A stretch of DNA of 64,000 nucleotides from Globodera rostochiensis. Lineage: Eukaryota > Nematoda > Chromadorea > Rhabditida > Heteroderidae. Below the pieces are notes generated by a model. It had not been told where the DNA came from, did not search any database, and saw only the letters and a list, made by a program, of their open reading frames with translations. Shown piece by piece: positions 2,028 to 60,055 of this stretch (its first letter is position 1; each line of letters begins with the position of its first letter). Made by a program: the position numbers and the translations under genes. The stretch spans positions 3,114,693 through 3,178,692 of the forward strand of contig JAEVLN010000006.1 of NCBI GenBank assembly GCA_018350325.1. The letters run 5' to 3'.

Positions 2028-2104
2028 TTTGGAGAAATTAATAAAAATAATTATTAAATGAAAATGGCGGAATTTGAATGTGCTTTCTGCTGCCTTTGCA
2101 ACTG

Positions 2105-2112
2105 CTTTTATA
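2105..2112 (-). promoter_or_regulatory. TATA box of the 1.1-2.0 kb secreted-protein gene
   Basis: On the minus strand this reads TATAAAAG within CGTCCGTATAAAAGC, about 80 bases upstream of the ATG. The same block (CCGTATAAAAGC) lies upstream of the paralogue, at 5059-5066, so it is conserved between the two promoters. Confidence 0.6.
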
Positions 2113-2128
2113 CGGACGCCACCGAGTC

Positions 2129-2134
2129 TGGCAT
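2129..2134 (-). promoter_or_regulatory. ATGCCA hexamer upstream of the 1.1-2.0 kb gene
   Basis: ATGCCA in gene orientation, about 105 bases before the ATG. A second copy in the opposite orientation lies at 2183-2188. ATGCCA was described as the DOG box of Globodera dorsal-gland effectors; its meaning here is inference. Confidence 0.35.
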
Positions 2135-2189
2135 TTTCTGATTGAATTGAAAATAGTTGGGCAATGGAAGAGGTTAGAAGAGATGCCAA

Positions 2190-3270
2190 CAAATTTTAAT
2201 TGATTTCTTGTTGGTTTGGGAATGTTTTTGATTTCTTCATCAATCTGCCAACAACATCCTCTCCATCATATATCCGTCGCCCACATATATATTTTTTAAT
2301 GATCTTGACTTACGATTTATCAAATTTATGCTTAATGTCGGATGACAAATAAATTGCTACAAATTATGTGCTTAAATATTTTAAACAAAATCTGACTACC
2401 TTTTAATTTGCATCAAATTTGCTACTCTTATTAAAAACGCCCTTTTTTTAACTTTTATTGAATATTTAGCTTATTTAATTTTTACTGGATTTGGTCTCCA
2501 AAACGATTGCCTTTAAGCAACTATTGGTTGCTCTACCTTTGACCAAATGCTACTATTTTTATTAATTTAAAAATGCCATTATTGAGCAATTTGATATTTT
2601 ATATATTACTTGGCTTCTTTTACTTTTTACTTTAGCATATATTTACATATATTTTATATTCCAAAATAAACCCAAAAATTATTCCTCAAGTGGACTTTCT
2701 CTCATTTTATTGGGTATATTAAAAATTTGTAAATATTTCGCCAATAAAGTGACAAAAAATGATTCAGACGGACTAGCTTCAAAAAATGCGGTCAATTTTT
2801 AAAATTTTCGTTATATATCTCTTTTTGGATTCGCTGATAGAAGCCCTGTTCCTAGCTGAACCCCAGTGTTTTTGTTCTTAAATAATTACCCTTAACCGCG
2901 GGTGCTAAGCCCTCTTTGATAGTTTATATGACGCGTTCAAATAATGACGTTTTTTATACTGAGTTTATGGTTACAGAAATAGGTACTTTTCTAGGTGACT
3001 CTTGATATAAAGTTGCTAATAGTTGTAAAAAAAGTGTTGAAATTTGTTGCAACAATAAATGTTTGTCCATTCTCTCTCTCCTTTGGTGTTTTGGCCAACT
3101 CGTTCCGATGTTGGCGTTCTCATCTCATTCCGTCACAACTGGCTCTTTCAAGGCGTCGTCTGCTCCAAATGGGTCTTCCTTTGACACCTTATTTGCAACA
3201 TTAAATCAGAAAACTTTTTGTCCTTGACATAATTTTAATATTCATATATCTTTATTGAAAATCCAATTGC
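2190..3270. other. AT-rich intergenic region
   Basis: It separates the two paralogous secreted-protein genes. A short open frame at about 2995-3204 has no gene-like features. No domain, RNA gene or clear repeat was seen. Confidence 0.4.
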
Positions 3271-3271
3271 T

Positions 3272-5003
3272 TCAGCCCACTTCGTTGTTGTCACGCATTG
3301 TTGCAGTCTTTGACCCGCTCTCGTTTGACGCTGAATCCACATCCCCTGAATTTCATAATTGTTAAGTGGGTCGTTTTCTTTGACCTTTAACATTATTGTT
3401 TTCAATACCGTCCATGCCATCTTTGTCGCCGTCATCGTCATTGTCATCGTCGAGAAGTGATTTTGGAGCTTCTGCTAGTTTGATGCCATGATCTTCCATG
3501 CTATCGTCGTCGTCATCGTCATCATCATCATCATTATCAACAAGAAGTGGTGAGTTTGAGCTTTTCGGCGCGCTTTCAGATTTGTCAACCTTCATAACAA
3601 GTCCAGGGTTTTCCAATTCTTCCTCCGGTTCGTTGTCCAACTGCTCCGACTTATTGTCCTCATCGTCGGAAGATGAGTTTTGGGGTTTTATAAATTATTT
3701 TAATTTTTTAATTAAAAACCTTTAACTGGGCTATTTGGTGGCGTGGCTTGTGCACTTGAATGATGTTCATCAATTCCTATAATTGATTTAAAAATGTAAG
3801 TACCTTTTTTTAAATTTCAACTTTAAACTCTAAAATTTTGGCATGTTTTCCAGCTTATGGGACGGCAAAACAAATTTGAATTCATTGCCGTTCTGACATT
3901 ATGAAAATCAAGTTAAAACATAATTGGCCCGCACGCACTTTGAACGTGAGCGGCTTTTTTTTGAACACCGCATTAATTGAATTTTGTCTGTTTTAATTAA
4001 CATTTGGCGATCTGTTTTTGCACCAATGAATTTCATTAGCTTTTTTTGCCGTCCATAAACTCTCCTTAGCTTATTCATACTCATATGGGCTAGTCTATTG
4101 GCACGGATTGGGCTCGACTTCTTTTTCGGTGATTTTGTGTCCTCACTCTTGATTGGGGATTTCGTGGATGGGGATTTTGGGTCGCTCTTGGATGGAGATT
4201 TCTTGGCCTGTGCTGTGGATAACTTCATGGATGGCGAGTTCACGAGCTTCACGGTGCCTAGTTAGTTAGGTAAATACTTTAAAACCGATTCAAAATTAAT
4301 AAAGAACAATTTATCAGTGTTTTCCCTGCTGAGAATCCTTTTAAATTAAAAACCAAAAGTTAATTATAGAAAACCTATCATTTTTTATTTGAATTTTGCG
4401 CTTTTTCTTCACTTATAATTCACAACGAAGCGAATTTACGATATAAGTATCACTCTACCTGCGGCTGGTCCATGTTTGCCAGGGCTGGGCGGTCCAGTTT
4501 TGCCATCGCTGGGCGGTCCAGTTTTGCCATGGCTGGGCGGTCCAGGTTTGCCAGGGCTGGGCGGTCCAGTTTTGTCATGGCTGGGCGGTCCATGTTTGCC
4601 AGGGCTGGGCGGTCCAGTTTTGTCATGGCTGGGCGGTCCATGTTTGCCAGGGCTGGGCGGTCCAGTTTTGTCATGGCTGGGCGGTCCATGTTTGCCAGGG
4701 CTGGGCGGTCCAGTTTTGTCATGGCTGGGCGGTCCATGTTTGCCAGGGCTGGGCGGTCCAGGTTTGCCAGGGCTGGCCGGTCCAGTTTTGGATGATGCGT
4801 TTGTTTTTTTTGGCGATGTTTCTGGCGTTGCACCTGAATTCTCTTCTTGAGTAAGAAATGTAGGTTAAAATTTTAATTTTTTTTTAATTTTTGTTTGTCA
4901 CCACACACAAGAAGGCACTGAAAATTTAAAGCATTTTTTGACCTGTTTCCAGAATGGAGGCCGTGATCAAGCAAAGCACGGCCAAGAAGAGAATGGTGCG
5001 CAT
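3272..5003 (-). CDS. Secreted protein with GPPS octapeptide repeats, basic middle and acidic tail (paralogue 2)
   Basis: Exon 1 (4943-5003, 61 nt) encodes the signal peptide MRTILFLAVLCLITASILET, close to that of the gene at 1123-2027. Exon 2 (about 4464-4852) encodes ETSPKKTNASSKT and then some 13 octapeptides of type GPPSPGKH/GPPSHDKT. Exon 3 (to about 4090) is basic: KKSPSKSDPKSPSTKSP, then SPKKKSSP. A small exon follows at about 3728-3784 (IDEHHSSAQATPPNSPVK). The next exon is acidic, with a run of ten Asp. The last exon probably ends at 3272, with AATAAA at 3251-3256; reading through instead gives a stop at 3362. Most junctions are phase 1. The acceptor of the acidic exon (about 3670) is not clear. 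It is tandem with, and built like, the gene downstream. No known domain is recognised; the repeats are collagen-like only in composition. Confidence 0.65.
4464..4790 (-). repeat. 24/48-bp coding minisatellite inside the 3.3-5.0 kb gene
   Basis: About 13 copies of a 24-bp unit beginning GCTGGGCGGTCCA on the plus strand, alternating between two variants so the higher-order period is 48 bp. Both periods are multiples of three, so copy-number change keeps the minus-strand GPPS frame. Several other frames on both strands are also open across it as a by-product of the periodicity. Confidence 0.9.
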
Positions 5004-7200: not shown

Positions 7201-8364
7201 CCGTATATACTGTTTTAATTCCACATGCGACATTATTGTTCAACCTCCTCAGAAAGGGCGACATTATTACAGGGTGGGACATTATTAGAGGGGGCGACAC
7301 TATTTTTCTACTTGTTTGGCGATATGTTCATCTATCACAAAAATTCTTCACTTTTTCCATACAATTTCCATATTTCAGCTGGCGAAAATTTTTTTGAGAA
7401 AAACTCCAAAAGGGGTCTTTTGTTTTGCAAAATTTATAGTTTTTGAACCAATTTTCTTAGCAAATTCCATCAAAAAACAAAAATTTGACCCCCAAATTGA
7501 TTTTGGAGATTTTTCTTCTGGAAAAATTCTTTAAGGAAAATCTATAAAAGCCAAAAATACAGCCCTAAAATCCAACTTTTTTCGAAAAAATTCCTTAAGA
7601 AAAATAATAAACTCCAAAAATGCACCCTAAAGATTGCCTTTTTCAAATTTCAAAAAATGCACCCCTAAAATCCAACTTTTTTCGAAAAAATTCGGCGTAC
7701 GGACCAAATGCAGACCGGTCCGAATGCAGACCGGGACAGATTGGGCAATAACTTGCTTCAATCTTGACATATTCAGACATTATTATAGTCATTCGAAAGC
7801 TCTTCAAGCGCTAAAGCTATTGTTAAGCAAAGGTTTTGTGACAAGTTTCAAAAAAGTTATGGCCAAAAAACTTTTAAAAAAATTTTTGAATGCAGAATTT
7901 TGGATTTTTTGGCCATAACTTTTTTGAAACTTGTCCAATCACAAAACTTTTGCTTAATAATAGCTTCAGCGCTTGAAGAGCTTTCGAATGACTATAATAA
8001 TGTCTGAATCTGTCAAGGCTGAAGCAAGTTATTGCCCGGTCTGTATTCGGATCGGTCTGCATTCGGACCAATTTATGCTTGGTCTGCATTCGGACCATTC
8101 TGCATTCGGTTCGGTAGCCAAATACTGGGTACATACTTGAAACACACTCGTAGTTTTTTCCCGTTACATCTCATCAAATTTTAGGTAGTGGAAGAGAAAT
8201 GATAAATTTGGATTTATAATTTGAAATGGGTGCGACATTATTAAAGGTTGAGACTGCGACATTATTACAGGGGGCGACATTATTTTCCAACCTCCTCAGA
8301 AAGGGCGACATTATTACAGGGGGTGACATTATTACAGGGTGTGGAATTAAAACAGTATATACGG
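7201..8364. mobile_element. Non-autonomous TIR element, 1.16 kb, with internal palindrome
   Basis: The terminal inverted repeats are CCGTATATACTGTTTTAATT plus CCACA at each end, flanked by TA (7199-7200 and 8365-8366). Inside each end are several copies of GCGACATTATTACAGGG-type words. The core is a second inverted repeat: about 7700-7885 is mirrored by about 7900-8110, containing GCAATAACTTGCTTCA and words such as CTGCATTCGGACC. No transposase frame is present; the open frames follow the palindrome. It resembles a Tc1/mariner-type or foldback element. Confidence 0.75.
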
Positions 8365-8366
8365 TA

Positions 8367-8868
8367 TATGCGTTAAACCCTTCAAAATTCATTAATCTTT
8401 ATTAATTTTGCTCTATGGATTTATTACGGAAAAATTCGCAAATAAAAACATGTAAAAACTTGAAACTCGGCCCTATTCATAGAAGCTGATAAGCCTTAGA
8501 AATAGCATTGACAACGAAGCGGTGGAATCTACGTGATTAAAGGATATTGGAATTAGGTAAGTTAAAATATTGAATATTATTTAAAACATCTCATGGTTAT
8601 TTTTAATTTCCCCCCGGCAACCCCCATCATTTTCATGTTCCAGTTGTGTTGGCTAAACACTTCCGCTTAATTATTGGCAAAACAAGGCAGAAAATCCAAT
8701 TACAATATTCGATTTTTTTCCGGAAAGCATCATATGTTTATCATTTATAAACATAATAATAACATTCAAACAGACTATCTATTTAAAGTCTTATTGATGA
8801 TAATATTCCTCATATTTTTTGACTCAATAAATTTAGCTATTTTATTACTAATTATTAAAATAATCAAA
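8367..8868. other. Upstream region of the 8.9 kb gene with a promoter-like relic
   Basis: At 8488-8522 the sequence nearly repeats the one at 5101-5136 (ATAAGCCTTAGAAATAGCAT, then TG and AACGAAG or AGCGAAG), which lies upstream of the 3.3-5.0 kb gene. It is probably a fragment left by a duplicated family member. The rest is AT-rich. Confidence 0.4.
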
Positions 8869-9438
8869 ATGAATAAAATTTCTTCATTTTTGATGGTTGT
8901 CATTTTTGCAGTCATTTTTATTGAGCTCGGTAAACTTTTTTTTATTAATCATAAAAAAATATATAATTTAGGAAATGCTGGAGCTATTCAATCAAAGATT
9001 AAAAAAATGCAAGGTGATTTTATATTAATACGTAAAAGATGACAAAAATAAAATCATTTTATTAATTCTAACATAACCTAATTTAATATTTTTTCAAAAG
9101 TTTTTAAAAATATTGGCTAAAAGATTAAATATTATAGTAAAACCGAAAAAATTAAGAATCAATCACTGGTGACACGCCATACCACCAAAAAAAGGGCAAA
9201 TCATCCAAACATGAAGAAGGATCAGACTCATCTTCTGATGTACCCCATAACAATAGTTCGGATTCGGACTCGGAAAAGGAAGAAGGTTCTAAGAGTAAGT
9301 TTTTATCCTTGAATCATGAAATTAAAAAAAAATAAACTATCAGAAAGTGAACATAAACATCGCGGAAAAGAAGCTGTAAAGTACACGAAATTGGAGAAGG
9401 TGAAATCGGACGATGCCCCTTCGGGATGTTCAGACTAA
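8869..9438 (+). CDS. Small secreted charged protein (about 97 residues)
   Basis: Three exons fit with consistent phase-1 introns. Exon 1 (8869-8929, 61 nt) is a signal peptide, MNKISSFLMVVIFAVIFIEL. Exon 2 (9157-9294) encodes a polar, Ser/Asp/Glu-rich stretch that begins SITGDTPYHQKKGKSSKHEE and contains DSSSDVPHNNSSDSDSEKEE. Exon 3 (9344-9438) encodes SEHKHRGKEAVKYTKLEKVK and ends in GCSD. A longer frame runs upstream of the ATG but is only AT-rich leader. The first-exon plan is the same as in the other secreted genes here. No domain is recognised. It could be an extracellular or secreted regulatory peptide; its function is unknown. Confidence 0.6.
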
Positions 9439-9864
9439 AAATATTTAGCTAATTTTTGTTCACAATTAGTTATTTCTATTCAAAAAAAAATCCTCAAAAA
9501 TTATTTTACAAATTCTTTTATTATCCATTTTTATTTGATTGCCCTCAGAGATAATGCATAAAACGAATATTCATATTTGAAAATTGGTGGACCCTTTTCT
9601 AAATAAAAATATTTTATAATAAAAATCACTGACAATGGCATAATTTTTTTCAACGGAATAATGAACACACAATTTTCTTTTGGTAGCGCCCGACGGCAAC
9701 TTGCGGTTGCGACGTTTTTGGCGTGTCATGCAAAGCATTTGCGAATTCATTTCGGGCCTAAGGCAGCTAAGTGAATTAAAATTACAAAAAAACCCCGCAG
9801 AGTGCGAATCTTAATACAACCAAATCAGTTAAATTAGAATTCCAAATTACTGAATATAAAGTTT
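9439..9864. other. AT-rich convergent intergenic region
   Basis: It lies between the converging ends of the plus-strand 8.9 kb gene and the minus-strand 9.9-11.0 kb gene and carries the 3' flanks of both. No gene was seen. Confidence 0.4.
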
Positions 9865-39220: not shown

Positions 39221-42200
39221 TCTCGGCTCTCGAACAACCCAAATAGCAATTTAAAATAAAAAAGATTGGTTTAAAAATTTTTTTTGTATTTTTTGAATCA
39301 TTTTACTGTATTGTTCATGGCCTATTACTGTGGGTGGATTGGTGAGTGAGTGAATGGGTAAGGGCATTTTTCCGAAAGATGTGACCCTTTCTCATTCGTA
39401 CATAGCGTCCTTTTTATTCAAAGCAACGTTCTCTGCCAGGAGGTCATTTTTATAGGGAAGGAGAAGAGATGAATCGATGGATTGCATTTTTAATATTTTA
39501 GTTTAAAGAAGCTCAAAAATTTGCATACCATTCTTTCCTAATAAAATTTAATCTCTCTTTAGTTAAAAAAATCTATTTGTTTAAATTTGAATTAAATAAA
39601 TTAAATTTAAATTCTCAGAAATTCATAAAACACAAACACAAAATGGCACGGGAACTGTATTCGGATACGCTTGGAATAATTGAGCTTTGGTCCCGTGTCC
39701 GTTCACAACATTGCGCCACAACAAAAGCGTTCAGTCCGAAAGGTTCGATTTCCATTGTATGGTAAAATAAAAATATAATAAAGCAGAATAATTCATTTCT
39801 ATGTAATTTTAAATTACGATTTTTTGGGATTCAATTTGTTTTGTTTATAAGGGTCTTATACTTAATACATAATTTATTCAGCAATCCTCCAACATTTTGA
39901 TACGATGGAGCAAATGCAGCAAAAATGCCGCATAACAACACAAAACAATGGCCGTCTCTCAGAAATGAACGATCGACTTAAACGTCAAATAGGGTAAAGG
40001 CTAAATAAAAACAAATATTTACAAATAAATATTTAATGAAGCCTTTAGCTTAATAAAGGGGTAAAAGATTTTCTATTTTCCTTTTTTTTAAATACTTTGT
40101 GAAATGTCTATATGATTTTTTCGCCAATTCTGAATTTATTTTTGAAATGTTTAGCATTAGATCACAGAAGTTCTCGATCAAATCTCGATTGAGATTCTCG
40201 ATCGACGAATTTTTTACCGAAATCTTTGAGATTTTTTGAGCTTCTCGATCAAGTCCAGGTTTTAGTTGGAATTAGAATTTGTTTAAAACAATTTTTGTAA
40301 CAATTAAGTTTTATAGAAATTATGTAACGGAACTGGATGATAGCAAAACGACCATTCATCAACTTGTTTCTGATTTGGCGGCATCAAACGCAAAAAATGA
40401 GTGCTTACAAGCCGAACTTGAAGAACATCGACGCATTTTTGAACTGGCCAACGACGAGCTCAAGGTGTTATGCTTTGATCTGATCCTTCCGTGATCAAAA
40501 ATTTTGGGTTTTGATCAGTGTTATTTTCACTGATCCTTATATTGAGCTGAGATTATCCACATCTTTGATCAGAAGCGTACAATCAATCACATTTTAATAA
40601 TTTGATGATCAATGAGATATACCCGATCACAGGGGTTGAGTCAAAAAATAAATTGTTTTTAAATTTTAAGGTTAAAATTAATTCTAATTAAACTTGTTAG
40701 AAATTGGCAAAAACTGATCGGACCAGTTTTGGTGTACAAATTTTTTAAATTAAATTAATAAAAATAAAATTGATTTACAGAATGTGACCGTACGAAAATC
40801 GACGCTTCAAAGAGAAAGCGAGTGCTTTGTTATCGACAAAAGTGTGCAGGACGGGAACAATCGGCACAGAAATGGGTCTGTCTAGACTAGAGCACGGCCG
40901 ATCGAGATTCTTGATGACGAAATTTTACAGAGATCTTCAAGATTTTTCGAGATTCTCGATCAAAGAATTTTGCCGAGATTTTTTTAGTGATCTCGACCAA
41001 ATCTCGATCCTTTAATTTTTTTCTCGAGATTCTCGATCGAAATCTTGATCGGTCCTCAAGCTGGGTTCTGAATATGTGTCTCTGAATTGGATTAACGAAA
41101 ATTTTCACTCAAAAAAAAAATAAAAATGATTTAATGGAAAATTGGAAATTTAAGGGAAAAAGCTCGATCAAAGCGCCGTTCAAGCTCTCATCATCAGTTT
41201 TTATCCGGCAAACGGTCCAAGCTGGCATCTAACGACACAAAGCATGTAAGCCAGCTTGTTTAAATTGATTTTCATGTAAAATATTTTTTAGTGAAATTTA
41301 AATATAATAATTCACTGGAAATTATTTAAACCCAGTATCTCACTGGCTGAATTCTTAGTCAAAAAGCGCGGCCAACAAACGCGATTTGCTTCAAATTACA
41401 ATATTAAACAATAATTTTTTCGATTGATTACTGTCATACACCGTTGACTACGGTCATCTCCAGCAATTTGTCTCCGGTCCGTGACGATGAGAATGACGAG
41501 CCCGCCCGGTTCGCGCGGCAACCCGCTGCACTTGCAGGTCGCGTGCATTTTTGCAGTGTACCGTCGTCACCTACTCCCATGAAAATATTTTTAAAAAAAA
41601 TTGGGTTTATTCATTAATATTATAATGTTGTAAGTCAGGCATGAGGGTAAATGTTTTTGTGGTACTTTTCGGTTATGATTGCCCCGTTCATAATAAATAC
41701 CGTTCAGGATGCGGGAGTTTTTTACTCACTGATTACGATAGGGCATTTTTATCATGTGACATTATCTTGTTACGATTTGAACTTTTTGATTTTCAAAAAA
41801 TTTTATAAATTAAAATCCGTGTCTCGGTGAGTTTAAGATTATTTAGAGATTTTAGATGATGCGCATTTGCCGTTTTCAATCGCATTTTGCGGCACTAAAA
41901 CCAGTCCTCACATTGGTTCCACAGTTTTGTCTTGCCGTGAGGAAACGCCAAAAAACGCCATATACGGTATTCGAATTTTTGATTGATCAGATCACCACCG
42001 ATCAAATCACCCAATGAAACCTTATTTGACGTCTCCACAAATGCCAATTTTGTATAAATTCCGATTTTTAATTTTTACAGGTCGCACTGCGCGCACCGCT
42101 TGTGCCAGCGGCAGTCGCTTGCCGCTCCGTTTGGCACGTCGTCGTGCCGATGCTGGTCGACCTGCGGCACCTCCGCCGCCCTCATTGCCCGTCATGCGAC

Positions 42201-44656
42201 GTCGTCGTTCCATCTCGGAGCCAAGCTTGCGCGCCAGCAAGATACCAGCCGTTGCTGTTGCTGATGCGAAGCAGGTCAATTTGGGGATTGATCATTCTTT
42301 GCGGTGCATTGTTAACAGTGTTTTTGCTGGCCATGTATATTTTTTATTGTTCAACAAATGAAAAATCTGATTAACGCTGAGATCTGATTAAGACAAAACA
42401 TTCCAACAAATTGTACCAGTCAGGGATGTAATTGGATGCCGGATTCCGGACATTTTTTTGGGAGCCGGGATTCCGGATGCCACTTTTTGACTTTTTTTTT
42501 GGCATTCGGTTACATCCCTGGAACCAATCTATAGGCCATGAATAAATGAATCAATTAAAATCGTTGTGTTAGTATCTGCATCCATAAAAGAATTCCCTCT
42601 ACCTCGTAATGATTTAAACAAAATAAGAATAGGTTATTCTCCCCATCAATTAGTTTTAATTTTTGAATTTTAAAATTGAATTAATTAAAATCATAAACCT
42701 GTTTAGATCAACACTCCAACCTTCCGTCGTTGTAACGGATCCAGGACTCCACAATCGAGTGGTCGAAAGTAAATTTATTGTTTCTCTTTTTTCAAAACCT
42801 TCATTAACCAAATTTATTTTATTTTGGTGTTATCTTTCAAAATGTTAAGATCCTCGAATGTTAACTTATGCACTTTTTACATATTTTTTTTAGATTACCC
42901 GGTTTTGGGGTCGGATGGACTCGCGGTCGGCCAATCCACAGTTGTGATCATCAATTTGCGGAGGAGCATGCGCTCGGAAAATTTTTGCAAAACTGTAAAA
43001 TGTGTGAAAATCGGCTTGGCCTTAGCTACTATAAATGCAAAGGTGGGTTCATACAATTTTTTTTGTTAAAATTTAACTAACCATGAACCATCTTGATTTC
43101 TTAATCATTATTTATATGGATTTAATTCTTTTCAATTATCAAAAAGTATAGTAGGTCACTGATTTAATGGCTTGATCAGGAGACTGATCATGTTTTTCTG
43201 ATCCAGTCATGAAAACACCAAAATCATATTCTCCACTAATCAGCATTTGATTGAAATCCTAAATTTTGTTGAATTTCCGTTTTTGGAACTAAACAGTATT
43301 CTTTTAACCAAACCAGGATTTCATACAGTATGCTTGCAAGTTTTCCACTGTATTCAGACTGCAAATTGTGTGTGCATTTCAACTGCCACTTTCTGGCTCC
43401 ATTGCCTTGCGTACCGTTTGTTGTGCCGTCTGCGACCACAAAAGTTGACGGTAGGACTGCTAATAAATTAAATCAGTGACTAAGCTAAGAATAAAAAACA
43501 ACTAAGTTTATATGTGTTTAGCTTTTTTATTGTTTAATTTAGTCGATATAGAAAAATTAAATATATTTTAAATCAACATTTTACTCAAAAAGGTTTTGCA
43601 CAAAAATTTCGTCTTGCGGATTATTGCCATCCAACAATTCCGAAGGTGCCCGCACAGTTGATTCGTTGTGTGTACGCTATTGAATCTGATCAGAACAACG
43701 GTGTGGAGGTGTATGAGCATATGGAACGAGCTTGGTAATATACAACAAAAATTTTTTCAAACATTTGATATTTTTGTAAAAAAGAAAAAAAATTATTAAA
43801 CAAATTATATTTATATTTGCTTTGTTTGAACAAAACTGATTTCATAACAATCAAAATTCATTGAGGTTCGACCCAAGCATTTTGGCGTTGTTTGATGATT
43901 TTGAAAAGGCACGCGCGGCTACCGTCCTCACTGGTCTCCGTGCTTATACTCTTGCCGGCTTTATTAAATCATTTTTACAAGGGTTGAAGGTGCCCCGTTT
44001 ATTTAAATAAATAAATATTTTACATTAATTCGAATTAAAACATTTAAATTAAATTTAAAAAACACAAAAATTTACTTTTCAGGAGCCTTTGATTCCAATT
44101 TCTTCGTACAACGAATTTCTGCTGGCCGCTCAGCTGAAAGACGATGACCTTTTGCGCAAAGCCATTGACGACCTTTTTCCGTTGCCAAACCGGGACACAT
44201 TAGCCTACTTATGCTTACATTGGCAACAGATGATCAAATGCTCTCAGCAAGCGGAATATGCCAATGTCAATCAATCGGATCAAGATATTGTAGGACTTTT
44301 ATGGTTTATTGAATTCTTATCAAGTCCGGTTGTGATCTGATTTGGGTGATCATTAGAACCCGGTTTTTTGAAAATTCGGGTCAGGGAGTCCTGGAAAATC
44401 CTGTCTGTCCAGAGTCCGGTCCTGTCCAGGCTCTAGTGATCATATCATTTGATCATGAAATCAGGTCATGCCCATGAATCAAATCGTCTGAAATATTTTT
44501 ACTTTTGAGAATAATTTCTCAACAAATAAATATTTTTCGATCCGGCGACTTGCCTGCTCATTGGCACCGACGGTGTGCAGCGCAATGGCGAAGCACGACG
44601 ATTTACCGTCTAAACAACATGAGCAAATTGTCATCATGGAGCAGCTGCTGAACTTT
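39221..44656 (+). repeat. Direct tandem duplication, first unit (5,436 bp)
   Basis: Every landmark in this unit recurs exactly 5,436 bases later, without visible substitutions or indels. The unit begins TCTCGGCTCTCGAAC and runs into the penultimate RacGAP coding exon. At the junction with the second unit only one base (T) is shared by the two break ends. Confidence 0.95.
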
Positions 44657-44695
44657 TCTCGGCTCTCGAACAACCCAAATAGCAATTTAAAATAA
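39643..44695 (+). pseudogene. CYK-4/RacGAP1-like gene, 3'-truncated upstream copy
   Basis: All exons up to the one encoding EQIVIMEQLLNF match the complete copy at 45079-50744. The duplication junction then replaces the rest of the exon and the last exon. Reading on gives SRLSNNPNSNLK and a stop at 44695, so a product with an altered C-terminus is possible if transcribed; it has its own 5' end, including the trans-splice-like acceptor at 39617-39618. The coiled coil, C1 domain and most of the RhoGAP domain would be kept. It is classed as a broken copy because the conserved C-terminal part (SMLGPVTW...) is lost. An assembly artefact cannot be excluded, given the identity. Confidence 0.75.
42421..42520. 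mobile_element. hAT-like MITE in RacGAP intron (first copy)
   Basis: The ends are CAGGGATGTAA and TTACATCCCTG, with inner GGATGCC/GGCATTC words inverted. The flanks are GTACCAGT and GAACCAAT, an imperfect 8-bp target duplication. An identical element lies at 47857-47956 in the second unit, so insertion predates the duplication. Confidence 0.7.
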
Positions 44696-47600
44696 AAAAG
44701 ATTGGTTTAAAAATTTTTTTTGTATTTTTTGAATCATTTTACTGTATTGTTCATGGCCTATTACTGTGGGTGGATTGGTGAGTGAGTGAATGGGTAAGGG
44801 CATTTTTCCGAAAGATGTGACCCTTTCTCATTCGTACATAGCGTCCTTTTTATTCAAAGCAACGTTCTCTGCCAGGAGGTCATTTTTATAGGGAAGGAGA
44901 AGAGATGAATCGATGGATTGCATTTTTAATATTTTAGTTTAAAGAAGCTCAAAAATTTGCATACCATTCTTTCCTAATAAAATTTAATCTCTCTTTAGTT
45001 AAAAAAATCTATTTGTTTAAATTTGAATTAAATAAATTAAATTTAAATTCTCAGAAATTCATAAAACACAAACACAAAATGGCACGGGAACTGTATTCGG
45101 ATACGCTTGGAATAATTGAGCTTTGGTCCCGTGTCCGTTCACAACATTGCGCCACAACAAAAGCGTTCAGTCCGAAAGGTTCGATTTCCATTGTATGGTA
45201 AAATAAAAATATAATAAAGCAGAATAATTCATTTCTATGTAATTTTAAATTACGATTTTTTGGGATTCAATTTGTTTTGTTTATAAGGGTCTTATACTTA
45301 ATACATAATTTATTCAGCAATCCTCCAACATTTTGATACGATGGAGCAAATGCAGCAAAAATGCCGCATAACAACACAAAACAATGGCCGTCTCTCAGAA
45401 ATGAACGATCGACTTAAACGTCAAATAGGGTAAAGGCTAAATAAAAACAAATATTTACAAATAAATATTTAATGAAGCCTTTAGCTTAATAAAGGGGTAA
45501 AAGATTTTCTATTTTCCTTTTTTTTAAATACTTTGTGAAATGTCTATATGATTTTTTCGCCAATTCTGAATTTATTTTTGAAATGTTTAGCATTAGATCA
45601 CAGAAGTTCTCGATCAAATCTCGATTGAGATTCTCGATCGACGAATTTTTTACCGAAATCTTTGAGATTTTTTGAGCTTCTCGATCAAGTCCAGGTTTTA
45701 GTTGGAATTAGAATTTGTTTAAAACAATTTTTGTAACAATTAAGTTTTATAGAAATTATGTAACGGAACTGGATGATAGCAAAACGACCATTCATCAACT
45801 TGTTTCTGATTTGGCGGCATCAAACGCAAAAAATGAGTGCTTACAAGCCGAACTTGAAGAACATCGACGCATTTTTGAACTGGCCAACGACGAGCTCAAG
45901 GTGTTATGCTTTGATCTGATCCTTCCGTGATCAAAAATTTTGGGTTTTGATCAGTGTTATTTTCACTGATCCTTATATTGAGCTGAGATTATCCACATCT
46001 TTGATCAGAAGCGTACAATCAATCACATTTTAATAATTTGATGATCAATGAGATATACCCGATCACAGGGGTTGAGTCAAAAAATAAATTGTTTTTAAAT
46101 TTTAAGGTTAAAATTAATTCTAATTAAACTTGTTAGAAATTGGCAAAAACTGATCGGACCAGTTTTGGTGTACAAATTTTTTAAATTAAATTAATAAAAA
46201 TAAAATTGATTTACAGAATGTGACCGTACGAAAATCGACGCTTCAAAGAGAAAGCGAGTGCTTTGTTATCGACAAAAGTGTGCAGGACGGGAACAATCGG
46301 CACAGAAATGGGTCTGTCTAGACTAGAGCACGGCCGATCGAGATTCTTGATGACGAAATTTTACAGAGATCTTCAAGATTTTTCGAGATTCTCGATCAAA
46401 GAATTTTGCCGAGATTTTTTTAGTGATCTCGACCAAATCTCGATCCTTTAATTTTTTTCTCGAGATTCTCGATCGAAATCTTGATCGGTCCTCAAGCTGG
46501 GTTCTGAATATGTGTCTCTGAATTGGATTAACGAAAATTTTCACTCAAAAAAAAAATAAAAATGATTTAATGGAAAATTGGAAATTTAAGGGAAAAAGCT
46601 CGATCAAAGCGCCGTTCAAGCTCTCATCATCAGTTTTTATCCGGCAAACGGTCCAAGCTGGCATCTAACGACACAAAGCATGTAAGCCAGCTTGTTTAAA
46701 TTGATTTTCATGTAAAATATTTTTTAGTGAAATTTAAATATAATAATTCACTGGAAATTATTTAAACCCAGTATCTCACTGGCTGAATTCTTAGTCAAAA
46801 AGCGCGGCCAACAAACGCGATTTGCTTCAAATTACAATATTAAACAATAATTTTTTCGATTGATTACTGTCATACACCGTTGACTACGGTCATCTCCAGC
46901 AATTTGTCTCCGGTCCGTGACGATGAGAATGACGAGCCCGCCCGGTTCGCGCGGCAACCCGCTGCACTTGCAGGTCGCGTGCATTTTTGCAGTGTACCGT
47001 CGTCACCTACTCCCATGAAAATATTTTTAAAAAAAATTGGGTTTATTCATTAATATTATAATGTTGTAAGTCAGGCATGAGGGTAAATGTTTTTGTGGTA
47101 CTTTTCGGTTATGATTGCCCCGTTCATAATAAATACCGTTCAGGATGCGGGAGTTTTTTACTCACTGATTACGATAGGGCATTTTTATCATGTGACATTA
47201 TCTTGTTACGATTTGAACTTTTTGATTTTCAAAAAATTTTATAAATTAAAATCCGTGTCTCGGTGAGTTTAAGATTATTTAGAGATTTTAGATGATGCGC
47301 ATTTGCCGTTTTCAATCGCATTTTGCGGCACTAAAACCAGTCCTCACATTGGTTCCACAGTTTTGTCTTGCCGTGAGGAAACGCCAAAAAACGCCATATA
47401 CGGTATTCGAATTTTTGATTGATCAGATCACCACCGATCAAATCACCCAATGAAACCTTATTTGACGTCTCCACAAATGCCAATTTTGTATAAATTCCGA
47501 TTTTTAATTTTTACAGGTCGCACTGCGCGCACCGCTTGTGCCAGCGGCAGTCGCTTGCCGCTCCGTTTGGCACGTCGTCGTGCCGATGCTGGTCGACCTG

Positions 47601-50092
47601 CGGCACCTCCGCCGCCCTCATTGCCCGTCATGCGACGTCGTCGTTCCATCTCGGAGCCAAGCTTGCGCGCCAGCAAGATACCAGCCGTTGCTGTTGCTGA
47701 TGCGAAGCAGGTCAATTTGGGGATTGATCATTCTTTGCGGTGCATTGTTAACAGTGTTTTTGCTGGCCATGTATATTTTTTATTGTTCAACAAATGAAAA
47801 ATCTGATTAACGCTGAGATCTGATTAAGACAAAACATTCCAACAAATTGTACCAGTCAGGGATGTAATTGGATGCCGGATTCCGGACATTTTTTTGGGAG
47901 CCGGGATTCCGGATGCCACTTTTTGACTTTTTTTTTGGCATTCGGTTACATCCCTGGAACCAATCTATAGGCCATGAATAAATGAATCAATTAAAATCGT
48001 TGTGTTAGTATCTGCATCCATAAAAGAATTCCCTCTACCTCGTAATGATTTAAACAAAATAAGAATAGGTTATTCTCCCCATCAATTAGTTTTAATTTTT
48101 GAATTTTAAAATTGAATTAATTAAAATCATAAACCTGTTTAGATCAACACTCCAACCTTCCGTCGTTGTAACGGATCCAGGACTCCACAATCGAGTGGTC
48201 GAAAGTAAATTTATTGTTTCTCTTTTTTCAAAACCTTCATTAACCAAATTTATTTTATTTTGGTGTTATCTTTCAAAATGTTAAGATCCTCGAATGTTAA
48301 CTTATGCACTTTTTACATATTTTTTTTAGATTACCCGGTTTTGGGGTCGGATGGACTCGCGGTCGGCCAATCCACAGTTGTGATCATCAATTTGCGGAGG
48401 AGCATGCGCTCGGAAAATTTTTGCAAAACTGTAAAATGTGTGAAAATCGGCTTGGCCTTAGCTACTATAAATGCAAAGGTGGGTTCATACAATTTTTTTT
48501 GTTAAAATTTAACTAACCATGAACCATCTTGATTTCTTAATCATTATTTATATGGATTTAATTCTTTTCAATTATCAAAAAGTATAGTAGGTCACTGATT
48601 TAATGGCTTGATCAGGAGACTGATCATGTTTTTCTGATCCAGTCATGAAAACACCAAAATCATATTCTCCACTAATCAGCATTTGATTGAAATCCTAAAT
48701 TTTGTTGAATTTCCGTTTTTGGAACTAAACAGTATTCTTTTAACCAAACCAGGATTTCATACAGTATGCTTGCAAGTTTTCCACTGTATTCAGACTGCAA
48801 ATTGTGTGTGCATTTCAACTGCCACTTTCTGGCTCCATTGCCTTGCGTACCGTTTGTTGTGCCGTCTGCGACCACAAAAGTTGACGGTAGGACTGCTAAT
48901 AAATTAAATCAGTGACTAAGCTAAGAATAAAAAACAACTAAGTTTATATGTGTTTAGCTTTTTTATTGTTTAATTTAGTCGATATAGAAAAATTAAATAT
49001 ATTTTAAATCAACATTTTACTCAAAAAGGTTTTGCACAAAAATTTCGTCTTGCGGATTATTGCCATCCAACAATTCCGAAGGTGCCCGCACAGTTGATTC
49101 GTTGTGTGTACGCTATTGAATCTGATCAGAACAACGGTGTGGAGGTGTATGAGCATATGGAACGAGCTTGGTAATATACAACAAAAATTTTTTCAAACAT
49201 TTGATATTTTTGTAAAAAAGAAAAAAAATTATTAAACAAATTATATTTATATTTGCTTTGTTTGAACAAAACTGATTTCATAACAATCAAAATTCATTGA
49301 GGTTCGACCCAAGCATTTTGGCGTTGTTTGATGATTTTGAAAAGGCACGCGCGGCTACCGTCCTCACTGGTCTCCGTGCTTATACTCTTGCCGGCTTTAT
49401 TAAATCATTTTTACAAGGGTTGAAGGTGCCCCGTTTATTTAAATAAATAAATATTTTACATTAATTCGAATTAAAACATTTAAATTAAATTTAAAAAACA
49501 CAAAAATTTACTTTTCAGGAGCCTTTGATTCCAATTTCTTCGTACAACGAATTTCTGCTGGCCGCTCAGCTGAAAGACGATGACCTTTTGCGCAAAGCCA
49601 TTGACGACCTTTTTCCGTTGCCAAACCGGGACACATTAGCCTACTTATGCTTACATTGGCAACAGATGATCAAATGCTCTCAGCAAGCGGAATATGCCAA
49701 TGTCAATCAATCGGATCAAGATATTGTAGGACTTTTATGGTTTATTGAATTCTTATCAAGTCCGGTTGTGATCTGATTTGGGTGATCATTAGAACCCGGT
49801 TTTTTGAAAATTCGGGTCAGGGAGTCCTGGAAAATCCTGTCTGTCCAGAGTCCGGTCCTGTCCAGGCTCTAGTGATCATATCATTTGATCATGAAATCAG
49901 GTCATGCCCATGAATCAAATCGTCTGAAATATTTTTACTTTTGAGAATAATTTCTCAACAAATAAATATTTTTCGATCCGGCGACTTGCCTGCTCATTGG
50001 CACCGACGGTGTGCAGCGCAATGGCGAAGCACGACGATTTACCGTCTAAACAACATGAGCAAATTGTCATCATGGAGCAGCTGCTGAACTTT
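44657..50092 (+). repeat. Direct tandem duplication, second unit (5,436 bp)
   Basis: It is identical by eye to 39221-44656 in length and in all reading frames. It ends at 50092 inside a RacGAP exon, where sequence continues normally (GGCAAT|gtaaaa) to the last exon. Confidence 0.95.
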
Positions 50093-50744
50093 GGCAATGT
50101 AAAAGATTCTATTTTTGTAAACTAATAATTGGAGCCCGGATTTTCAGGGTTTAACCAATTTTTTGTTTTTGCAAACATGCATTTATTTTGAAATTTTTGA
50201 GCGACTTTTTAGTTAATATTTAAATCAATATTTTGGCATTTTATGGAAAATTCTTGAAGAAATTCAATATTTTTTAGACATTTTTCCGAAAATTTTTAAG
50301 CAAAAACGGAAATAGGCGGCACCCTTAAAAATCAAAAACATTTTCCCAACTAAAACTACAAACGACTTTTCTTGGACCAAAAATGCTTAAGATCGAATTT
50401 TCCGAAAATATACCGGGTTTGGTAGTTTTAGCACTTTTTAGTCAATATAAATAAATTCGGTATCTACTACTTAAATAATGATTTGGTAATTTAAAAACCA
50501 AAAAAAAAAATTGCAAAAATGCTTTTCTTTTCAGTGGGCACAAATTCTAGTCAAATGTTCTACTTCTGCTGATGTGCCGAAATCAAAAGGCCGTCTGGCA
50601 GAAGCATCGGTTGGCATTCAAAAACTGGAGATGAACAACATTTCAACGCCGTTTGGTGGATTATCGGCGGACAGCTCCATGTTGGGCCCGGTCACGTGGA
50701 CGCCTTCAACTCCGCTTGAGGCGCAAGAGCAACGTAGCAAGTGA
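45079..50744 (+). CDS. CYK-4/RacGAP1-like Rho-family GTPase-activating protein (centralspindlin subunit), complete copy
   Basis: Family role: central spindle and cytokinesis, partner of the MKLP1 kinesin. The start MARELYSDTLGIIELW is set by a trans-splice-like acceptor (45053-45054). Exons 2-3 encode a coiled coil (AILQHFDTMEQMQQKC to LQAELEEHRRIFELANDELK). A basic Ser/Arg-rich linker follows, with RRRRSISEPSLRASK and NTPTFRRCNG. The C1 zinc domain spans two exons (HQFAEEHALGKFLQNCKMC, then DCKLCVHFNCHFLAPLPC). The RhoGAP domain starts LADYCHPTIPKVPAQLI and includes LKEPLIP, LPNRDTLAYL and RRLACSLAPTV. The C-terminus has NNISTPFGG and SMLGPVTW. Where family members have the arginine finger (GxYRxxG), this reads GVEVYEH. 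One junction, before NLSPVRDD (about 46897), does not fit by phase. Confidence 0.85.
47857..47956. mobile_element. hAT-like MITE in RacGAP intron (second copy)
   Basis: Identical to 42421-42520; see that element. Confidence 0.7.
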
Positions 50745-51184
50745 ACAATAAAATTCAAAAAATATTAATTCAAACGTATTCAAAGCTTATTTGTTTATAT
50801 TTTTTTCATTAATTTTTTGTGCATTGGACCAAATGTTAACGTTATTAAAATATATTTTAAATTATGACTTTTTTCTTTTTTATAAATTTTTAATTAACAT
50901 TTTGACTAACTTTTTATTTTTTTCAATAAATCTATACGCTTTTTTAATTTAAGACTCGTAAGCCAAGTGAAGCGCAAAGGACCTTTATTCGATCGGCCGT
51001 ATTGAACAAACATCTTTGATTTATTTTCGCGTTTTTACATTGAAATTTAAAACAAACGTGTTGCATCTCAATAATTGTACATTTTGAATTTAAGGATTTG
51101 AAATAAAACGTAACGACCAAAATTTATTTTTAACACTTTAATTAAAAATAGCCTTTTTTGAGTTTCGACTTTGGGTGGGTATAT
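50745..51184. other. AT-rich intergenic region after the RacGAP gene
   Basis: 3' flank of the RacGAP gene with AATAAA words near 50746 and 50925. No other gene was seen. Confidence 0.4.
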
Positions 51185-51597: not shown

Positions 51598-52248
51598 TAC
51601 GCTTTTTAAATATGTTAATACATATTGTGCATTGATATAATTAATATGCCCGTCCCCGTGGACTGTTGGGCCCCCTCCCATCCAAGGGCAAGCCCCTGGA
51701 TGGGAGGGTTCGCAGTCCGGGCTAACCCTCTTAGTTGGAGTGTTTTTGGGGGGAAAGGTCCGAAGGCGATGCGGCAATTACTTTTATTATTCAACCTCCG
51801 CCAAATTGTTAGGCGAACGAACTGATGGACTGACAGACTGACCTCGATCACAAAAAGATCCAATCTTATAAACGAACAATGGGGAGGGATTTGGCCCACA
51901 ACAACTGTTTGGGGGAGGAGAACGAAACATAACGGGAAGGGTTGGGGAAAGGCCGTTAGAGGAAAAGGGAGAAGAGAGGGAGAGGGGAAATTGCGTTGTC
52001 GGTTTGATCAAAGGCCGATCATTTGCTCTCTCTCTTTTCTCATCCATAACAATAATTAATCAATATTTTATTGCGGACATATTGAAAACATTGGCCTCGC
52101 CAGTTGACGTCAGTTAAATTGTAAATATTTAATAACATTTACATTACGTAAATGGGTAATGTAAATGATTATAAATACAAGAAAATCACTTCTCTTATTC
52201 ATAAAGATAATTCAATATTAATAAGCTGCAAATAAAATTTATGCAAAA
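51598..52248. other. Upstream region of the PAH gene
   Basis: It includes a strong short hairpin (CTCCCATCCAAGGG facing CCCCTGGATGGGAG, about 51667-51708), a purine-rich block (51950-51990) and a candidate TATA-like ATAAATAC near 52171. No ATGCCA hexamer was seen within 150 bases of the start. Open frames on both strands look like composition effects. Confidence 0.4.
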
Positions 52249-52940
52249 ATGAATAAAGCGTTGGCCGTGCTTTGCTTGACAATTTTTGTTCAATTAGGTA
52301 ACCTTTAAATTATAATTAATAAATTTGTTTTTTTATTTATTATTATTAGCCATTGCTAAGCCTGTCCAGCCCGAAAAAGACATTCAAACAACATTTGTTA
52401 GTGCCAATTCAAATTCCGCTAATGATAAAAATCAGAAATTGAGCTATTCTGGTAATGTTTCAATAAAATTAAAAAATTTAATATAAATGTATTTGACGTA
52501 TTTTCTTTTAGACAATAAACAATTAATAGGACGTAAACGAAAAGCGTCGGAGTTTGTTGAAGCAATTAATTTTGTGAATAAATTAAAGGTATAAATAAAC
52601 TTTTTAAATTAAAATCATTTGTCTATTTAAGAAAAAATCTTTTATCTTTTTAACTTACATTAATTAAATTTCAGCATTTTTGTACAAAAACCTGCCTAAT
52701 TTAATAAATTTTTAGATCCGTTTCCGCAACAATTTTGATATGTACAAAAAGTTTATGCATATTATATATGAGCATAAAATGAATAACACCTCAAAATTTG
52801 GAATGTATGTGCAAGTTTCTGAACTATTCAAGAATTGCCAAGACCTGTTTGGAGAATTTATAAGATTTATGCCATTTATAGAATTGGATCAACAAAATCA
52901 ACCAGAGGCAAAACGACAAAAATTGATAAGCAAATCGTAA
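52249..52940 (+). CDS. Secreted protein with a Sin3-type paired amphipathic helix (PAH) domain
   Basis: Four exons (52249-52297, 52350-52451, 52512-52588, 52716-52940) give 150 residues. The first 17 or so are a signal peptide (MNKALAVLCLTIFVQLA), in a separate phase-1 exon. A polar linker (about 18-60) ends in the basic GRKRKA. Residues about 61-130 match the PAH fold of Sin3 co-repressors, best PAH2: FVEAINFVNKLKIRF, MYKKFMHIIYEHK, YVQVSELFKNCQDLFGEFIR, then FMP. The tail EAKRQKLISKS is basic. In Sin3, PAH domains bind short amphipathic helices of transcription factors in the nucleus; a PAH domain on its own behind a signal peptide is unusual. With two basic stretches it could act in a nucleus after secretion (inference). 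The rest of Sin3 is absent from the flanks. Confidence 0.8.
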
Positions 52941-54124: not shown

Positions 54125-55156
54125 ATGAACAAATTTCTGTTGGCCGCAATTTCTTTATTAGCCTTTTTTCAATTAGGTAAAATAAAAAACATATATTTTT
54201 AAAAATAAATTCAAATTAAAGGCATAACAACACCAGTTCACCATAATGAAGAAGAATCTAAAGTTCCTCTACTGAAAAAAGAAATCGGTAATATTAATGA
54301 CAATATATTTTTCGAACTTTTTGGTTAATTTTTTGTCAAAATAACCACTAAAGCTGCCCAAAAATCCAAAATTTTCAAGCCAAAACCCCGAGACTTTTCT
54401 CGACACGAGACCAAGGTTATGGTCAAGCCAGACACAACAAAATGTTGTACTAGACTAGAATTTTTATAGGGTTTTTAAAAGCAAATGGTCAGATTTTGTC
54501 TGAATTACTTTAAATTTAAACGATTAAATTAAATATTAAAAACTAAATTTTAAGTTCAAACGGCACCAGCCCATTCGGAAAAAGAAATTGCACCTGAATC
54601 AAAAGAGCAAGTGCCACTTTCAAGTGCAGAAATTGGTTTGTTAATAGAGTTCTAGTTTAATAACTTTTATTTTATATTTTTGGTAAAAATTTAAATCATT
54701 CTTAAGCCGGTCCATCAGAGCCGAAAAAAGTACCAAAGCAATCACCTCCAAAACTCGTTGATTATGACGTGAACCGTGTTGCTGCCCGAGCTGTGGTCAA
54801 AGTGTACGGATGGCTGCCAGTTGACAAGCAACCGAAGGCGATCAGTGATGCCGAAGCTGCAAAAAATGCGCCAAAACCACTGGGCGACTATGACGTAGAG
54901 CGAGTGGCTGCAAAGGCTGCGCAAATTGTGTACGGCTGGCTGCCCAAAGAGGCACAGCCAAACATGAACAAAGGTAAGCATTGTTTTAATTAAAAAAATA
55001 TATTTATTTTCAGTTTCTCTATTTTTTCGGCATTGTTTTAAAATGTTACTCATCGAATTTTTCACATTTTTAGACGACTTTTATGCGGATGAAAGTGGAG
55101 CTGATGATATCAAGAATGACCAGCTCGACAAGCTGTCAAAATTGAACATCAACTAG
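54125..55156 (+). CDS. Secreted VYGWLP-repeat protein, copy A
   Basis: Five exons (54125-54176, 54222-54287, 54555-54635, 54707-54973, 55074-55156), all introns phase 1, give 182 residues. Exon 1 is a signal peptide, MNKFLLAAISLLAFFQL. Exons 2-3 are short polar linkers (ITTPVHHNEEESK; APAHSEKEIAPESKEQ). Exon 4 encodes two units of about 26 residues of form DYDVxRVAAxA, then VYGWLP, then QPK or QPN, joined by an Ala/Lys-rich spacer. The last exon is acidic (DDFYADESGADDIKND) and ends LSKLNIN. No known family is recognised. The signal peptide, repeats and multiple copies suit a secreted effector, but the function is unknown. An ATGCCA-type hexamer (TGGCAT) lies at about 53916. Confidence 0.8.
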
Positions 55157-56114
55157 TAATTGAAGGGATTGTGATTTTAGTGATAATTTAGAAATTTTTT
55201 TGAATTTTTTTAAACTTTTGGGATTCATATTTCCATCGCGATATTATGGGCTTCTGACCAAAGCTTTTTGACTAAACCTATTAATTTTCTTTTGTTTTCG
55301 CTGTTTCTTCACATTCTGTTGTGCCTAAAAGTGATATTTGTAATATTGTTTGATAAATGTTTGATAAATTAAATTTTGGATAGCTTAATTTTAATAAAAA
55401 AAAAAATTGGAGCAAGCCAAAAATGTGGAGCTAAAATGCCCTTTAGCTTTAAAGCAATATTTTCATACAATTTAAAACAATGGCCAATTTTCACGTGAAA
55501 TATTGCACTGGAGCAAGCCAAAAATGTGGAGCTTAAATGCCCTTTAGCTTTAAAGCAATATTTTCATACAATTTAAATAACGGCTAATTTTTCACGTGAA
55601 ATATTGCACTTTGTCACAGGGATGGTAATCGAATATTGGCACATTTTTCTTTGCCATTCACTCTGTTTATAAACAATCTGCACAAACGGTTAAATAGTTT
55701 TATAAACAGAGTGAATGGCAAACAAAAATGTGCCAATATTCGATTACCATCCCTGTGACAAAGTGCAATATTTCACGTGAAAATTGGCCATTGTTTTAAA
55801 TTGTATGAAAATATTGCTTTAAAGCTAAAGGGCATTTTAGCTCCACATTTTTGGCTTGCTCCAATTTTTTTTTTTATTAAAATTAAGCTATCCAAAATTT
55901 AATTTATCAAACATTTATCAAACAATATTACAAATATCACTTTTAGGCACAACAGAATGTGAAGAAACAGCGAAAACAAAAGAAAATTAATAGGTTTAGT
56001 CAAAAAGCTTTGGTCAGAAGCCCATAATATCGCGATGGAAATATGAATCCCAAAAGTTTAAAAAAATTCAAAAAAATTTCTAAATTATCACTAAAATCAC
56101 AATCCCTTCAATTA

Positions 56115-59243: not shown

Positions 59244-60055
59244 ATGAATACATTTATGTTGGTCGCCGCAATTTCTTTGGCTGCAATTTTTGAATTTGGT
59301 AAAATTCAAAAATTGTTTTTTTTTTTAAATTCATTAAAAATGTAGGCAACACAACTCCAGTTCATCCTACTGAAGATAAAGCTGCATTAAAAGTTGCACT
59401 GCTCAATGAACAAACTGGTATAAATTTATTAAATAATTATTTTTAAATTTTATTAATTGAAGCTGATTTCTAGATAATGTATATAAATTATAGGCATCAT
59501 AAAGTCTGGCCATCACGATACGATTTTTCATAAGCTAAAATTTTTTTAGAAAAGCCAAAGCCTCCGGTAGAAACAATAAAAGCGCCAGCCGATTATGACA
59601 TGGAGCGCGTGGCAGCCAATGCGGCGGCCAAAGTGTACGGTTGGCTGCCAGCCGACAAGCAGCCGAAGAAGATCAAAGATCAAGAAGCGCCAAAAAACGT
59701 GCCACCGGCCGATTATGACGTTGAGCGGGTGGCAGCAAAGGCTGCCCACGCCGTTTACGGTTGGCTGCCAAAAGAGCAGCAGCCAAAGCTGATGGACGGT
59801 CTGCCAACATTTTATTTTTAAAATATTGTTTAAATAACACATTTTTGAAAAAGCATAACGACAAATCGATATAAGCAAAAAATAATAAATGAAATTAGAA
59901 CGAAAATTAGGTATGTTATTTAAAACTTATACATATTAAATGAAAAATTCTTTTAACTATTTAAAATAAATACTTCTTTTTTTTTGATTGACAATAAATT
60001 GTTTTCGATTTTAGATGACGAACGCGCTTCCCATGTGCCGTCAGCATTGAATTAG
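59244..60055 (+). CDS. Secreted VYGWLP-repeat protein, diverged paralogue D
   Basis: Four exons (59244-59298, 59346-59417, 59550-59798, 60015-60055), all introns phase 1, give 138 residues. The signal peptide is MNTFMLVAAISLAAIF. A linker GNTTPVHPTEDKAALK matches the exon 2 start of copies A-C. Two repeats follow: DYDMERVAANAAAKVYGWLP and DYDVERVAAKAAHAVYGWLP. The last exon gives DDERASHVPSALN, positioned like the DDFYADES exon of copy A. If the third intron is retained, the frame stops at 59821 instead (LMDGLPTFYF). It lacks the exon 3 linker of copies A-C. It is the only diverged member here, so the repeat core is what selection seems to keep. Confidence 0.75.

Follow-up and report, generated by a model that had tools for sequence, protein, structure and literature searches.

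A gene of the cyst nematode Globodera rostochiensis in which a secretion-type leader stands before a docking domain of the Sin3 co-repressor raises the question of where its product acts, and on what. The gene lies on the plus strand at 52249-52940 of the window, by which we mean the whole stretch of 64,000 nucleotides analysed here (contig JAEVLN010000006.1, positions 3,114,693 to 3,178,692). Because the leader exon is joined to a lone PAH2-type domain, the product is predicted to be secreted, and we regard the chances as about even that it is a decoy binding plant repressors in place of the plant Sin3 proteins (SNL). We put forward tentatively the broader proposal that potato cyst nematodes turned their own Sin3 docking domain into injected decoys that soak up plant repressors and that act as dominant negatives, lifting or rerouting silencing by histone deacetylase (HDAC) in the feeding cell.

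Gene structure and domain identity

The gene has four exons with GT-AG borders throughout and a coding sequence of 453 nucleotides, which encodes 150 residues without an internal stop. The order along the protein is a hydrophobic leader, a linker with GRKRK, one PAH domain, and a basic tail. The features are as follows:

52170..52178, plus strand: TATA-like element, 79 bases upstream of the start codon
52249..52297, plus strand: exon 1, start codon and hydrophobic leader MNKALAVLCLTIFVQL, with a phase-1 intron after it (from splice sites and hydropathy)
52350..52451, plus strand: exon 2, predicted cleavage site between AIA and KPV, and polar linker
52512..52588, plus strand: exon 3, basic patch IGRKRK followed by helix 1 of the PAH EFVEAINFVNKLK, with a phase-0 intron after it at the Sin3-PAH2 position
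52716..52940, plus strand: exon 4, remaining PAH domain, basic C-terminal tail, and stop codon
52547..52588, plus strand: PAH domain, part 1 (residues 63-76, helix 1)
52716..52877, plus strand: PAH domain, part 2 (residues 77-130, helices 2-4, FMPF end)
52902..52922, plus strand: PEAKRQK, predicted monopartite nuclear localisation signal with c-Myc-type resemblance

The G+C content is 0.29-0.37 in the exons and 0.10-0.17 in the introns. A preliminary description of this DNA had placed a signal peptide in its own exon and basic patches on both sides of the domain, and the gene model agrees on both counts. The first 19 residues are hydrophobic, end at an AxA site (AIA, then KP), and are predicted to form a signal peptide; the patches are GRKRK (residues 57-61) and KRQK (142-145). 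The 12-residue Kyte-Doolittle maximum of the leader is reached by 30 of the 990 ATG-started frames of the window (approximately 3%), so that its hydrophobicity alone is not strong evidence. The tail was compared with the c-Myc signal PAAKRVKLD and the K(K/R)X(K/R) rule (passages of PMC5288373). Among 20,000 shuffles, this looser rule was matched in 38% and a stricter nuclear-signal pattern in 0.7%.

The preliminary description had also called the domain a PAH closest to PAH2, to be checked with the Pfam profile, and both parts of this call were borne out. The Pfam PAH profile (PF02671) matches the window protein at 26.4 bits, above the cut-off of 21.3 (E 5.6e-6). Searching the PDB sequences with phmmer returned 17 distinct ones at E<=1, 16 of which are Sin3-family chains and one unrelated. 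The best match is a Sin3 (E 3.1e-15) with its main stretch in PAH2, and a PAH2-type stretch is the best one in each of the five matches viewed aligned. In the tree, the domain falls among the PAH2 rows, on a long end branch (3.84 changes per column). Compared with a PAH2 consensus built from 44 short-loop PAH2 rows out of 119 fetched proteins, and with helix limits that we set ourselves, it has 8/15, 5/15, 5/12, and 6/12 identical positions in helices 1, 2, 3, and 4, respectively. The EFxxAIxFVNKLK face is retained; 6 of 10 conserved PAH2 binding residues are reported to belong to helix 1, and helices 3-4 are said to contribute none (passages of PMC7948954). Fourteen positions are invariant in a five-row alignment of the window PAH, C80 (the second leader-bearing PAH gene, described below), and three Sin3 PAH2s: A68, R78, F79, Y86, F89, I92, V110, L113, F114, D119, L120, F124, F127, and P129.

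The protein is nevertheless not a Sin3 co-repressor, since it has 150 residues and a single PAH and is without PAH1, PAH3, the HDAC-interaction region, and Sin3a_C. Used as a single query against 5.8 billion proteins, it gave 8 candidates, none at E<=1. A viral structure library yielded no match at E<=0.001. Used as a query, the promoter-exon 1 DNA of the window gene matched nothing but itself and, weakly and in inverted orientation, another site in the window.

The second leader-bearing PAH gene and the descent of the domain

We searched the genome (92.6 Mb in 80 contigs, to which the C-numbers refer) with the PAH profile, and five regions scored above its cut-off: two belong to the nematode's own Sin3 on C13, and the others are the window gene and one region each on C9 and C80. 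The own Sin3 gene stands apart from the window gene; it has PAH1 and PAH2, and its locus also yields a Sin3a_C match. At that locus (C13:712500-722400), the C-terminal part is repeated, and the open frames at 1335-3440 recur at 7662-9767. The C9 match (C9:292500-298500, minus strand; 25.4 bits from a rough exon join) is in a larger gene in which no leader was seen. Another candidate, at C9:420170 (E 0.0015, 3 stops), was dropped because no PAH motif could be found by eye in three frames.

The gene on C80 (C80:918419-921126, minus strand) carries, in order, a leader (MNKCLLLLLSSTIILQFG), a phase-1 intron, NSTPV, an IGRK motif, and two PAH domains, PAH-a and PAH-b. Its counterpart in G. pallida, A0A183BJT0 (UniRef, 212 residues), came top of a profile search with 1934 candidates and 580 proteins at E<=0.01, of which the best 120 proteins were fetched; the query alignment (A2) held an incomplete first model of the C80 gene. 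A0A183BJT0 is named a GLOBIN domain-containing protein, yet it carries PAH domains and a leader nearly identical to that of C80, and the record independently joins the leader and PAH exons. It resembles the C80 gene in the leader ending QFG and then xSTPV, the GRK motif, and the PAHs ending in FMP; it differs from the window protein in its two tandem PAHs and in an identity of 24% over 52% of the query. The term stand-alone in the preliminary description thus holds for the window gene, with its one PAH, but not for the two-PAH leader-bearing relative that is shared with G. pallida. A single-sequence search with A0A183BJT0 found only itself among 290 candidates.

The C80 protein and A0A183BJT0 are identical at 17/18 positions of the leader, 31/40 of the linker, 58/67 of PAH-a, 65/67 of PAH-b, and 20/20 of the tail. 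The domain and the leader therefore look constrained, and the linker less so. In helix 1, C80 PAH-a matches the PAH2 consensus at 1/15 positions and PAH-b at 4/15, and PAH-a may bind differently or not at all. The C80 tail holds KKK only; a nuclear-signal match first counted for this protein was discarded because it falls inside helix 1 of PAH-b.

The window and C80 genes have several features in common. Both leaders are followed by a phase-1 intron and then by PV at the same offset, three residues past the codon that the intron splits, as also in the G. pallida counterpart and in the YGWLP-type genes near the window gene. This PV offset occurs at 17 of 2948 acceptor-like sites in the window, the total of 17 taking in the window's leader genes without listing them separately. 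Both genes have IGRK before the PAH, and FMP ends all three of their PAHs as well as both in A0A183BJT0. FLP ends 104/104 Sin3-type endings scored by pattern in the 120 fetched proteins (A0A183BJT0 not scored), and in a looser F.P count, M occurs only in A0A183BJT0 (2/150). A search for the leader pattern gave 6 matches in the genome and 1 in a reversed control. Five of the six are the PAH and YGWLP genes, and the sixth (C20) has an in-frame stop; because those five are the pattern's own source genes, the search shows its rarity and is not an independent discovery.

The position of the intron after helix 1 bears on descent. It is in phase 0, between NKLK and IRF in the window PAH and between NRIK and ERF in the nematode's own Sin3 PAH2. 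By eye, the own Sin3 PAH2 agrees in codon and phase with the window PAH and with the two PAHs of C80, and the introns of the own Sin3 PAH1 are in other phases. Two Sin3 fragments of unstated origin (P0079 and P0106) have intron-like inserts at the same PAH2 site, so the intron is probably old and marks descent from PAH2 rather than the donor species. We infer that a duplication of the nematode's own Sin3 gene gave rise to the window PAH, which then gained a secretion leader, of the kind that the neighbouring secreted-type genes appear to use.

A candidate decoy and its rivals

How could such a protein act? It would be made in a nematode gland, secreted, and delivered into host plant cells, where its basic patches are predicted to take it into the nucleus. 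There, the PAH cleft would bind the helical motifs of repressors. Because it lacks the remainder of Sin3, including PAH3 and the HDAC-interaction region, repressors bound in this way would be unable to recruit histone deacetylase to their target genes, and the protein would be a natural dominant-negative Sin3. The PAH domains of plant SNL are docking sites, to which helices 2 and 3 of HDIP1 bind (passages of PMC12170880). A decoy role fits the anatomy of the protein, as read from its sequence.

Several findings weigh against the decoy. The dorsal-gland promoter motif, or DOG box (ATGCCA), is absent from 600 bases of promoter in both the C80 and the window PAH gene. Translation of the window gene could also begin at an in-frame ATG at 52487 (intron 2), giving a form without the leader (MYLTYFLLDNKQLIGRKRKASEF...), and the C80 gene likewise has an in-frame ATG before exon 2, from which a leaderless form is possible. 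The window domain is, moreover, strongly diverged, with 27/67 identity to the PAH2 consensus. The missing DOG box favours a secreted or endoplasmic reticulum-retained protein that acts inside the nematode, e.g., in gland or cuticle secretions, as a peptide-binding scaffold that never meets host chromatin; so does the strong conservation between C80 and G. pallida, above all in PAH-b, which is more housekeeping-like than expected of an arms race. This reading is unlikely but has a real chance; it is opposed by the nuclear-signal-like basic tail and by the position of the gene, which has secreted-type genes with a leader like its own clustered 1.2 kb away, an arrangement resembling the effector islands noted in G. 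rostochiensis (passages of PMC4901422). Dorsal-gland effectors such as CLEs can, for their part, be without a DOG box (passages of PMC10946958). The in-frame ATGs would suit a gene whose leader is unused, where transcription begins within intron 2 or at a different first exon and yields a nuclear fragment that tunes the nematode's own Sin3 complex. We hold this to be improbable, given that the C80 leader is better conserved towards G. pallida than the linker and that the A0A183BJT0 record includes it.

The divergence raises the further question of whether the window copy is a decaying duplicate, i.e., a Sin3-derived secreted gene that drifted and is now without function. The identity to the consensus, the long branch, and the failure of the window protein alone to find a relative all point that way; the intact reading frame and splice sites and the 14 invariant positions from A68 to P129 argue against it, and we consider it improbable. 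Trees were built on 68 columns and do not decide the grouping of the window PAH: p-AU is 0.21 when it is grouped with the own PAH2, 0.18 with PAH-b, 0.25 with all secreted PAHs, 0.14 with all secreted PAHs and the own PAH2, and 0.18 with plant-type PAH2. A plant origin is thus neither supported nor excluded by the trees, the plant-type grouping costing 1.6 log-likelihood units. Horizontal transfer of the PAH from a host plant SNL gene would also be in line with helix 1, which matches the PAH2 consensus at 8/15 positions where the own Sin3 helix 1 matches at 7/15, the rest being more diverged. However, the leader style, IGRK, and the FMP ending are common to the window and C80 genes, and PAH-a of the G. 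pallida counterpart matches the Sin3 PAH2 exon of the genome analysed here (50% over 38 residues, tblastn), which leaves plant transfer a very small chance.

The decoy can be set beside known systems. The window protein shares with Sin3 PAH2 (human SIN3A/B, yeast SIN3, plant SNL) the PAH sequence and the position and phase of the PAH2 intron; a four-helix fold is predicted for the family member that was folded. The window protein differs in its leader start, its FMP end, and its 150 residues, compared with more than 1000. The Heterodera schachtii effector 32E03 acts on plant histone deacetylation in the nucleus, the pathway proposed here, but it is reported as an HDAC inhibitor; passages of PMC12937675 connect it with neither PAH nor Sin3, the term 'sin3' being absent from that paper. 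The GS-like effectors of cyst nematodes arose in the manner proposed here, from a duplicated housekeeping gene that acquired a signal peptide (abstract of PMC5919673), but they are enzymes, their genes carry gland promoter elements, and their delivery is reported. SID decoy peptides compete in human cells at the interface of SIN3A PAH2 and repressors (PMC5190053); in that case the peptide blocks PAH2, whereas in the nematode the role of decoy would fall to the PAH domain.

The candidate is of a known kind, a repurposed housekeeping domain, and the use of PAH for this purpose is unreported in the literature searched. None of the papers listed from that literature, which left most subscription papers outside its coverage, describes a nematode effector with PAH or Sin3; by term search, Sin3, PAH, and globin are all absent from the main text of PMC4213498 (G. 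pallida effectors), and Sin3 from the available text of PMC4901422. If the decoy reading is true, these proteins would be the first family of secreted effectors with a PAH domain, and placing a co-repressor domain behind a secretion leader would be a simple route to new effectors. Cyst nematodes rewrite root-cell expression for their feeding site. A secreted PAH offers a testable handle on the resetting of host chromatin, as it should bind the helical motifs with which plant repressors recruit SNL-HDA19, and it would explain the G. pallida protein now labelled a globin.

Neighbouring genes and genomic setting

The cluster next to the PAH gene consists of four secreted-type genes with VYGWLP repeats. 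The copies at 54125 (plus), 57146 (minus), and 58632 (minus) have an identical 224-base start, and the one at 59244 (plus) has diverged. Those on the plus strand are:

54125..55157, plus strand: VYGWLP neighbour, secreted-type, with the same kind of leader (end approximate; not part of the PAH gene)
59244..60054, plus strand: diverged VYGWLP family member, with a leader and PV at the same offset (end approximate)

A match to the 224-base start also occurs upstream of the window, at C56:3091552. Of the four YGWLP-type genes, three have one or two DOG boxes; two boxes are shared by a divergent pair and enter the count for each member. A TATA-like element stands at a distance similar to that in the PAH gene in two leader-bearing neighbours (-75 and -71) and in the C80 gene (-80). 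It is lacking at that distance in a short gene at 8869-9440, which has a signal-peptide-like first exon followed by Ser/Glu/Lys-rich exons.

The setting is that of a Globodera cyst nematode, as the parasite guessed at in the preliminary description: the close G. pallida counterpart is accompanied by SPRY and pectate lyase matches. All 150 SPRY candidates scored, of 429 in a first look, are matches (at least 150 therefore), and there are 9 pectate lyase matches; G. pallida has approximately 300 SPRY proteins (passages of PMC4901422). Elsewhere in the window, at 40000-50750, one gene has undergone a tandem duplication of about 5.4 kb. Read by eye, the translation of the duplicated gene resembles a C1/RhoGAP protein of the CYK-4 type.
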